Assembly (NCBI GenBank): GCA_031213475.1
Contig: JARUPZ010000002.1
Location: 7,390,330-7,454,329, forward strand
Length of the DNA: 64,000 bases
DNA from: Nereocystis luetkeana
Lineage: Eukaryota; Sar; Phaeophyceae; Laminariales; Laminariaceae
Direction of reading: 5' to 3'
Positions 1,062-64,000 of this stretch are shown in pieces; position 1 is the stretch's first letter; every line of letters begins with the position of its first letter. The translations under genes were made by a program, and so were the position numbers. The notes beneath the pieces were generated by a model. The model had not been told where the DNA came from. It made no database searches and was given only the letters and a program-made list of their open reading frames with translations.

Positions 1062-4000
1062 TCACAGCTCTCCCGCGGCGGCGATGGCGTCGATGACTTG
1101 GTCCAGCGGTACTGCCTCCTGCTCGTCCCCAGCTACCAGGCCTCTGAAGGCCGAAGCGAGCACGGGATCGGACGTCGAGTAAAACCTGAGGAACAGGAAA
1201 TACGCGATGCCTGCGACCGGCAGCACCAAAGACACGAGGGCCCCTCCCAAGAACGTCCCGGCGTGGTCCTTCGGGGCTCCGTTCATCTTCCCGTTGGCGC
1301 TGTGCCTGCAGCGGGCGGGCGGGCGGGCGGAGACGGGGCGCGGGGCGCGGGCGTGGGGATGCAGCCGATATTTATTTCATCGTCATCGGTTTTAGTCGTG
1401 GGGGTGAATGAAATGAAACGGACGAAGGAACGAACAAATGGTCCCCCGATCGAGAATTTCGTGCTTCTGCAGAGGAGGAAATGTTTGACGTTCTCCAAGT
1501 CTTGGAACTATTAATAGCACAGTAGAAACTACAAAATACCAACACTGTGAAAGAACAGCACCCACGCCATATACGCAAAAGCCACACCAGCTCACCCCAC
1601 CCCACCCCACCCCCCCCCATCTGACCCCGACCAAACCAAACCGCACATCCAACAAGACAGCTTCTTTTCACGAAAGGCTGTATCCTGTCCCGTATCATCC
1701 TCATTATCGTACCGTCCCATACCGTCTCATCCCATCTCATAATCTCATTCCGTCCCACCCCACCCCACCTCATCCCATCCCGCCCTATCCCGTCTCGTCC
1801 CATCCCATCCCATCCCATCCCACCCCACCCCATTCCGACACAGCCAACCTCACTGCTCTCTCCACCGCGTACAATACGGCCCTATATTTGCCTCTTTCAC
1901 AACCGACCGCACGTCTCTACGGGAAAATACTTGGTGTTAGTATGGAATCAGGTCTTGCAGCGGTTAAAGGCTCCACGCACATCTGTGAGGGTAATACCTA
2001 CTAGGCTACAGGGGTAAAACATCGATAGAATACCCAGCCCAGGGCAATCCTTGCAACACTCCCCCCCTCTGAACGGCGGGATCTTTGGGGGCGTCGGTGC
2101 CGTATACGGCCGTACACTGACCTGTTACCCGCACCGTTTCAATACCTACCAGGGGAACCAGGGAGACGTGTTTGTTGGGACGCACGCGCAAGGGTTTCTA
2201 TAAAAAAAACGTTCGAAGTGAGATTCGAACCCGTGTCCTCGACGATGCCAAATGTGAGGGTATTGACCACCGAGCTACGGGGGTAAAAGATCGATCGATT
2301 ACCCAACCCAGGGTAATCCTTGTAACACGTCGGACAGATGAGATAGAGCATTCCCACATCATCATCATCATCTAGGAGACCTCTCACTGCTCTCTACCAG
2401 CTATGATCTACGTGTACCGTATGCAGCTCATCATGTCTGGTGGTGGGACCCGTACAACGGTATGATCCACAGCAATTAGGACATGTCTCCTGGGGTTGGA
2501 TCTGCACTATACAGTTGAAGCTGTACTCTACAGATCAAGCACACCATATCATAGCGGCAGGTTGGGACCTGGGTGATCTACAGATAGATCGCGATCTACC
2601 TGTCCCACGTGTCGAAGGGTTTTACCGATGTGATTACAGTAGATGGATCGGCAGTATCATATACGGGATAAATACCTGGGCTTGTATCCCGCGAAGTTTC
2701 GCTCCCCCTCCGACCACGGCGGCAAGAACCGCATCAACACGCCCAAAGGAAGGACTGCGGCGCCCATCAGGACTGTCGTTGCCCACTCTTCTCTATTCAA
2801 GTCCTCCGTCCTACATGGACGAGACAGACGAGCCAGACAGACAGACAGACAAACGGACAGATAGACAGATAGACAGATACGATAGACATACAGACAGACA
2901 GACAGACAGACAGACAGACAGACAGACAGACAGACAGACAGACAGACGAGCCAGACAGACAGACAGACAGACAGACAGACAGACAGACAGACAGACAGAC
3001 AAACAGACAGACAGACAGACAGACAGACAGACAGACAGACAGACAGACAGACAGACAGAAAGACAGAGACAGACGGACAGACAGATAGACAGGCAGACAG
3101 ACAGACAGACAGACAGACAGACAGACAGACAGACAGACAGACAGACAGACAGACCGACAGACCGACAGGCAGACAGACAGACAGACAGACAGACAGACAG
3201 ACAGTCAGGCAGGCACAGACAAACAGACAGACAAGCAAACAGAGAAAAACGAACAAGACAGACAGGCAGGCAGGCATACAGACAGACAGAGGAAAACGAA
3301 AAGGCAGAAACGACGACGCACGATCATATCGGAATCAGAAAAGAGGAGAGAATGTTGAGGTGAAAGAGAAGTGTAACTCCGTCGGTGGTTAGGTTCGAAG
3401 GAAAGTCACCGTTGCCGGCATTGGCATGGTCACCGGTACCGTATACTCCTCCCCCCGCCCACGAGTAAAAGCTATTTTTCATCAGGGTAGCAGCGATAAA
3501 GGCAGGCAGGCAGACACTTACCATGTACCTATTGCGTATGAGTCTACTGATGTAAAATCTAGCTACGTTTTTCTACCGATGGAACTCTTGACCCCATTTT
3601 TTTGGACCGATTTTTCTCCAAAAACGAAACCCTAGCTACATAAATTATGGTTTTTAGGACCGATTTTTCTCCAAAAACGAAACCCTAGCTACATAAATTA
3701 TGGGGAACATTTTCCTAACGACCAACGGACGTGCCAGTACAAGGTATACCTACATATACGATCGAAGTGTAGATCACACACACAGCATGGAGAGATACTT
3801 TCGACGAAATTCTCGATTTCACGGGGTTATATTATTAGTAAGTAATATTGCCATTGTTTATAAATATACAATAAATGCGTACCAGGTACACATCTACATG
3901 CGGTACCTGGTGGAGCTAATCAATGCGCGCCGCCTTTTTTCTACCCATCGATCGTCTACGGACACAACACTACCCTTGCCATCGAAAAGTTATCTCGTAA

Positions 4001-62676: not shown

Positions 62677-64000
62677 GTGAGAGGTGGAGAGGGTTTTTTT
62701 TTTCGAGTCGACTTGACATGCTGGAAGTGGCGGTCCCCCTTCGAACCTCGCAAGGGCACTGTGGTGTGAACTTCACCGTGAGGGCACAAAGTGCCGCTGT
62801 TATCTCTCCTCGACGGTCCGGTTGACGCGGGCTGAGACCACCGGAGCTGGGGAGCGAGACCTTTTATGTCGGTGTGCTAGTGGTTTTGCCGCATAAATAT
62901 GATATTGCCTCGGTGTGGGTCGTGATCGGGGAACAAACGTAGAATTGAGTCGTTTAAACGGAGAAAACTAGCACTGCCTTCTCGGGAATTGCACTTTTGG
63001 CGACGTTGTGCATCGGACGTAGATGAACGAAGTTGAGTGAGAGGACTGGCCGAAACGACGAAACGCCTTGATAATCGTCACCGCGCAACAGGTTTCCTTT
63101 ATTTTGTTTCGTTGTCTGGACCATCCGGCATCTCGAGATCGACGCTCTGGTAGTTATCTTCGTGTTTCTCGAGACGTCTTTGGTGATGCGACAGCGAATC
63201 TCTTTGGTTTTTGAGCAAAACAATGGGATGAGGACGGCCGAGCGCCGGTACCCAAATAGTCGATTTTCACTGTGTTCATCGCGGCGTTCTGCACCAAATG
63301 AAGCGCTTTATGACCGGCGTGACGTATTCTCTTCTTGGGGCGAGAAATCCCCCCCGCGATTGCTTTCCACGCGCCGACGTTACGGTCGGACGTACCAGGT
63401 ATATCGTGTGAGCTTACATCAGCCGCTGGAGGGCTCTCAACCGCAATATCGCGGTGTTTCGTTATTGGCACTACTGGTGAAGCAGGTCCACGCTTGCTCG
63501 CTCTTATTCATGTCGATCATGGTTTTCATTGTGTCGCGGCCCGGTACCATGACAGTTACTTTCTTGACGTTTTCGACGGACCGGCTCATATTGTAGTCCA
63601 GGAGTTTATCGACGTACTTTCATACTGGCCCCAGTATAGTACGTTCGATTTGGTGAGCCTGTTCAAAGTTTGCGCTATTGCGGCTGCAGTTCTAGTGAGC
63701 GGTGATTGTCGTACAACCCCCCCTCCGACGTTTTGTTTGAGACTCCTGATATCTATGCGTCTGGTGAATCTATGTCACGTTGACATTTTGTTTTTCTCCC
63801 TTGAAGGCAGTGCACCGTTCCGCCGACGAGTGACTCCTCACAGGGCACATTTACCGGCCCGTGCTCGGCACCGTTATGGCACAACAACATGTCTCCAGTC
63901 CGAAGGACGTAGCTTGACCCACCTCCCGCGCCATCCCCCTCCCCTCTTGCCCTGATCATATGTTTCGCTTCCAACCGCGCTGGAAAACAAACAAAAAACG
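62677..64000. other. Region after the last SET-gene exon found
   Basis: The SET gene should continue here, because exon 7 ends in phase 2 before GTGAGAGG, but no following exon convinces me. A 144-residue frame at 63162-63596 and a 206-residue frame at 63335-63955 have no family resemblance. TACCAGGTA lies at 63393-63401. Confidence 0.4.

Follow-up and report, generated by a model that had tools for sequence, protein, structure and literature searches.

We analysed a stretch of 64,000 nucleotides from the brown alga Nereocystis luetkeana (assembly GCA_031213475.1, contig JARUPZ010000002.1, forward-strand positions 7,390,330 to 7,454,329), here called the window, with coordinates counted from its first base. 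It is strewn with copies of a nine-base palindrome, TACCWGGTA (W, A or T), each of which we call a scar after the origin proposed below. There are exactly 28 exact copies at 26 loci, spanning 3880-63401, 17 with W=T and 11 with W=A. The initial annotation of this DNA had counted at least 28 by eye and put the chance expectation at about 0.5, and both figures hold up: in Markov simulations, 100 for each of orders 1-4, the means were 0.26-1.13 and the maximum 5, and 0.34 copies per window are expected under a model trained on scar-free sequence. The runner-up among 9-mers of the same palindrome-with-W form occurs 7 times. The mass occurrence that had been claimed extends to the whole assembly (465,085,209 bases), where TACCWGGTA is found 182,395 times and the reversed pattern, serving as control, 1,744 times. 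The genome-wide density is 0.39 per kb, and by arithmetic the scar bases sum to about 1.28 Mb, or 0.27% of the genome. For closer study the window was combined with 200 contiguous kb of a second contig (the block; GC 51%, against 52% in the window). The resulting 264 kb hold 107 exact copies against 1.82 expected, at 99 exact loci, and the single scars carry T in 49 cases and A in 42.

Scars are unevenly distributed along the window, with 0.85 per kb in its middle and 0.19 and 0.22 per kb in its two outer parts, where its recognised genes sit. By exact 9-mer count, the form TACCAGGTA lies at 3880..3888, 24875..24883, 32666..32674 and 63393..63401, and within a TA-rich run at 40507..40515. The form TACCTGGTA lies at 4093..4101, 13246..13254, 22582..22590, 25119..25127, 25952..25960, 26625..26633, 28215..28223, 28801..28809 and 37802..37810, and again within a TA-rich run at 32851..32859. 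Two sites are exact double scars, TACCTGGTACCTGGTA at 42403..42418 and TACCAGGTACCAGGTA at 58098..58113, the latter also from the 9-mer count. Altered doubles are present at 13337..13352 (TACCTGGTGCCAGGTA, with the middle TA changed) and at 49098..49113 (TGCCAGGTACCAGGTA, with an outer TA changed and an exact 9-mer at 49105-49113). At 24065..24080, TACCTGGTA is followed by an altered second scar (CCTGGAA), and at 40561..40575, TACCAGGTA is followed by CTGGTA, by eye a second scar short of 1 bp. The double at 42403..42418 and a TACCTGGTA scar at 42633..42641 both fall between two open reading frames (ORFs) with MON1 longin domains. These ORFs make up a MON1-like gene (41063-43380) with two longin domains, and three exact 9-mers lie between them.

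Empty and filled sites

Paralogous repeats show that TACCWGGTA is a 7-bp insertion by which TA becomes TA-CCWGG-TA, with a TA present on both sides of the insert. Of the 107 copies in the 264 kb, 37 have a paralog with at least 80% identity across the site, and an exact empty TA was found for 15 of them. The other 22 comprise 11 with filled counterparts only, 5 with filled and other counterparts, and 6 with other counterparts only. The 37 include related copies, each counted separately, and are not independent events; nor are the 157 pairwise block alignments independent, of which a single tandem family at block 197755 supplies many. Comparison words of the form TA-X-TA yielded an exact empty site in 1 of 61 cases. 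Three of these words are themselves enriched in the 264 kb and were considered as further scar classes: TACGAGTA/TACTCGTA (46 against 11.3 expected), TACWGTA (81 against 36.9) and TACAGCAGTA (28 against 1.5). All three were rejected, with exact empty sites for their inserts CGAG, CWG and CAGCAG in 0/13, 1/15 and 0/11 cases (1/39 together). Six control words gave 0/22, no paralog being testable for two of them. The contrast between 15/37 and 1/61 supports duplication of the TA target on insertion, as the initial annotation had claimed and as is characteristic of Tc1/mariner elements.

Individual pairs of empty and filled sites at 92-97% identity are found at block 20518, 23233 and 24454. Alignment also bears out the cases singled out earlier in the window. 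In a 550-bp repeat family, copy 1 carries TACCTGGTA at 5788..5796 and copy 3 carries TACCAGGTA at the same site (33304..33312), while copy 2 has an empty TA at 30139..30140; four more copies aligned in the block are all empty, so that 2 of 7 are filled overall. Likewise, a repeat arm with an empty TA at 4960..4961 has a partner filled with TACCTGGTA at 25224..25232. The base at W can go either way at one and the same site, again as had been proposed: it is T at 5788 and A at 33304, a site at which five relatives in the 264 kb are empty, and at a second site it is A at block 75044 and T at 76400, where empty paralogs also exist. One block site occurs with zero, one and two units among its paralogs (single at 45029, double at 44425, empty copy aligned from 45471). 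One-mismatch forms of the scar number 96 in the 264 kb against 43.6 expected, and because such decayed forms are in excess, the scars are not all recent.

A broken long interspersed nuclear element (LINE) at 33701-35385, with a reverse transcriptase domain, carries two scars, each of which had been thought to explain a frame break by its 7 bp. The explanation fits the first, TACCAGGTA at 34573..34581, by both frame test and alignment. Immediately ahead of the motif a single frame is open, and immediately behind it only the +1-shifted frame, which is the shift that a 7-bp insert requires, and two block homologues were classed as empty at this site, one of them clearly so. It does not fit the second, TACCTGGTA at 35240..35248 near the LINE 3' end, where the predicted frame holds 2 stops after the motif; one block homologue (83%) was classed as empty there, its alignment having a gap of 1 base next to the site.

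Such sites bear on the idea that TACCWGGTA is a functional short palindrome that selection has spread and maintained, in the manner of HIP1 in cyanobacteria or of DNA uptake sequences. Its density across the genome would suit a word of this kind. We nevertheless hold selection to be a very improbable explanation, since the motif arises by insertion and not by substitution, one copy breaks the LINE frame at 34573, scars are rarer in the parts of the window where recognised genes lie, and one-mismatch copies show decay.

Target preference and double scars

With the scars removed, 93 non-redundant sites from the 264 kb display a twofold-symmetric pattern centred on the TA. Counted over half-sites, W occupies position -7 in 158 of 186 (chi2 88.5), A is favoured at -6 (78 against 45.7 expected) and at -3 (72 against 50.7), T is favoured at -2 (64 against 50.3), and T is avoided at -1 (10 against 34.6). 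W flanks both sides (+/-7) at 65 of the 93 sites, against a background of 26.5%, and there is no site at which it flanks neither. The symmetric inner core reads ATR-TA-YAT (ATRTAYAT), with the extra W at +/-7. A TA at -7/-6 is favoured as well (38 against 11.8 expected), and an existing scar also offers a TA there. In the window alone, with local TAs as controls, W at -7 reaches p 0.0003 or less and the balance of A over T at -3 reaches p 0.0004-0.007. An AT-rich palindromic target core is reported for Tc1-like elements, and ATR-TA-YAT resembles ATATATAT, the core given for the Tc1-like elements ZB, SB and Bari in the available passages of a published account (PMC7913693). Within the accessible portions of the literature on Tc1-like target cores, we found no description of W at +/-7.

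Exact double scars number 15,917 genome-wide, where the control gives 2, and are about 11 times as many as the roughly 1,446 given by a simple random estimate of hits on the TAs of scars. By the order of their W bases they fall into AA (4,800), TT (4,739), AT (4,522) and TA (1,856, by subtraction), with triples counted twice in these figures. The 6,378 doubles with mixed W strongly favour AT over TA. From the single-site preference for A at -3, the predicted AT share among them is 0.63, and 0.71 is observed. A second event that landed on the TA of a scar and preferred A at -3 would raise AT over TA and leave AA and TT as they are. The order of W fits repeated separate events and not slippage alone, and we regard it as the best sign that scars were made singly, by one process with one target preference.

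Slippage of a 7-base tandem repeat, (TACCWGG)n, could add to the doubles with the same W, which are in excess (60% against 50% predicted), and some tandem duplication or other bias likely contributes to them. Arrays of this type do occur elsewhere: at least 118 stretches in bacterial contigs match the double pattern, and the 28 loci inspected are doubles or longer 7-bp arrays of TACCWGG-like units. In the 264 kb, by contrast, 91 of the 99 exact runs are single units and not arrays of two or more, although 11 additional 16-mers lie one mismatch away from a double. Slippage alone would yield AA and TT only, and so leaves the mixed doubles and their asymmetry unexplained. As it cannot create a first unit from TA, it is refuted for the single copies, and as a source of the motif as a whole it has next to no probability.

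Origin of the scars

We consider it probable that copies of TACCWGGTA are the excision scars of a TA-targeting cut-and-paste element that leaves 5-nt CCWGG ends. A mobile element whose ends read CCAGG (or CCTGG) would insert at a TA and duplicate it. When the element exits, the cut would leave overhangs on both flanks, each made of five of its terminal bases; these would anneal through CC and GG around a central A:A or T:T mismatch, and repair of the mismatch to A or to T would produce TA-CCWGG-TA. Both TAs of a scar would be good targets in their turn, and scars would thereby nest into doubles. Scars can come to outnumber resident elements when elements are few and their jumps frequent, or when the element has died out. 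By analogy the process would work like that of Tc1/mariner elements, with a longer element in the past and a DDE enzyme of that type, although membership of the superfamily is unproven. A further mark of the superfamily is a staggered cut that leaves 3' overhangs.

The initial annotation had also proposed a Tc1/mariner-like origin, and had pointed to TA-flanked elements with CCAGG ends and to a DDD/DDE transposase as things to look for. The insertion, the TA duplication and the symmetric target agree with its proposal; the element and the enzyme did not emerge from the limited searches below, and this and several other observations weigh against excision. Among end pairs up to 12 kb apart in the 264 kb, out of 465 Mb, we recognised no resident element bounded by CCWGG. 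Requiring agreement at 12 or more of 16 bases left 38 such end pairs in the block, and requiring it at 7 or more of 9 left 6 in the window; every pair includes a complete scar as one end or both. Recurring extensions of TACCWGG belong to other repeats. A genome-wide first look for Pfam DDE_3, of limited sensitivity, gave 0 matches at E<=1e-3 among 30 candidates scored, and Pfam recognised no domain in 10 ORFs at 21-39 kb of the window. The scar also has 5 bp (CCWGG) and is largely uniform, against footprints of 2-4 bp reported for Tc1/mariner elements in the available text of PMC7913693. Finally, leaving out three related sites weakens the preference for A at -3 in the window alone (p 0.08-0.12), and the excess of same-W doubles noted above exceeds what separate events predict.

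The uniformity of the scar can be stated more closely. In the window, the variants of at least 3 bases that trimming or filling of CCWGG ends could yield add up to 35 where 18.9 are expected, compared with 28 exact scars against 0.34. In the 264 kb, the shorter forms CCAG/CTGG (21 against 8.4 expected) and CCGG (11 against 3.5) are only 2-3 times above expectation. Trimmed forms may exist as a minority, and trimming is at most minor.

We discounted two candidate elements as a matter of judgement. One, of 154 bp at window 32706-32859, is weak and single-copy. The other is a pair of 332 bp at block 19156-19488 with a 16/16 match, but its repeat extends beyond the scars, and we read it as an inverted duplication carrying scars. 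The surrounding block region, 18790-19830, is a large inverted duplication in which both arms bear a double scar with one TA altered. A TA-flanked, MITE-like inverted repeat is present in the window at 13733-13846 and 21483-21702, with ends CGGGGGACCATAGTTAATAGGACC. It was rejected as the source of the scars because its ends (CGGGGGACC) differ from the scar. Scans of viral contigs gave only 9 chance-like matches to the double pattern, and nothing useful with the repeat end, the MITE end or two LINE pieces as queries.

The apparent lack of a resident element invites an account in which none existed. A host or viral enzyme might add CCWGG and a copy of TA directly at a TA, for example by templating or ligating a 5-mer where breaks at TA are staggered. 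Such a micro-insertion would sit well with the DDE_3 and end-pair searches, within their sensitivity and extent, with an insert that is largely uniform, and with a site that holds 0, 1 or 2 units in different paralogs. It is harder to square with a target preference that resembles that of a symmetric transposase complex, and we know of no enzyme that performs such a reaction. We judge it unlikely, though the most credible of the alternatives.

A second set of alternatives keeps the longer element and changes the manner of its removal. EcoRII recognises CCWGG and cuts it to 5-nt ends. A non-classical, genome-wide excision system might be imagined, in the form of a domesticated or programmed excisase, or of a mariner-like element removed by an EcoRII-type enzyme, that took out almost all copies, its traces being the roughly 180,000 uniform scars; the chances of this are slim. 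Slimmer still are those of programmed elimination, meaning developmental or domesticated excision that removes nearly all copies, like the precise removal of internal eliminated sequences from the somatic genome in ciliates. It would explain why 99 exact scar loci in the 264 kb come with no element recognised in place, and why the repair product is largely uniform. Paralogs within one genome nevertheless differ in empty or filled state and in W, and decayed copies exist, which implies that scars accumulated over time; to our knowledge, moreover, algae have no division of germline and soma of the ciliate kind.

Known systems and meaning

An excision product with a central A or T of either kind, as in the scar, is familiar from the footprint of Sleeping Beauty. 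Sleeping Beauty and other Tc1-like elements share further traits with the process proposed here, as far as the available passages go: a TA target that is duplicated, a footprint derived from the element ends and an AT-rich palindromic core (PMC8151067, PMC7913693). According to partial texts, the CAG footprint of Sleeping Beauty comes from the ends by a process in which overhangs undergo end joining (PMC8151067), and for ISY100 the cut lies 2 nt inside (PMC2170065). The differences are those of size and number. Tc1-like footprints have 2-4 bp and the scar has 5 bases, and here the scars run into the hundred thousands. Stowaway and Osmar5, of the plant mariner group, likewise leave TA-flanked remnants of terminal repeats, and excerpts on Stowaway in Triticeae describe re-insertion at the same TA within an old footprint (PMC1925063), much as in our doubles. 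Their footprints retain 1-4 bp of the ends; like plant footprints generally in the passages available, they are mixed (PMC1925063, PMC4423477), in contrast to the one largely uniform product in Nereocystis, and this too counts against the excision origin. An algal setting for a mariner element with TA duplication is provided by Mariner-1_OLpv of an algal virus, which according to the accessible text is accompanied by an EcoRII-like nuclease and a methyltransferase (PMC3627910); a link to the scars would be a guess.

In the brown alga Ectocarpus, 17 Tc1-Mariner families with 11,912 copies are listed in the portion of the report available (PMC12477816), and the words footprint and excision are absent from its main text. 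We found no published description of the TACCWGGTA scar in the literature searched, which mostly lies outside subscription journals and was accessible in part, and papers containing either 9-mer deal with unrelated subjects, among the matches listed. Set against the Tc1/mariner footprints reported in the available sources, the scar is longer and more uniform, and it is extraordinarily abundant.

The window has other features besides. A tandem duplication of about 620 bp lies at 37905-39140 (90% identity), and pieces of a P-type ATPase lie on the minus strand at 17644-19950, adjoining long simple repeats. The start of an ORF at 57018 reads to us like a signal peptide with an F-containing motif after it, as in heterokont plastid proteins. 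Rfam and tRNA scans of the window returned nothing relevant.

Excision scars are presumably too short and too varied, as a rule, to be counted; in Nereocystis the length and uniformity of the scars allow them to be read genome-wide. They occur in repeats, in a LINE and between the exons of a gene, and their 7 bp shift a reading frame. Read as excision products, they would amount to a census of past transposition events in one lineage, together with the target preference, nesting order and decay of those events. The scars seemingly far outnumber resident copies, and such a ratio bears directly on how often elements leave.

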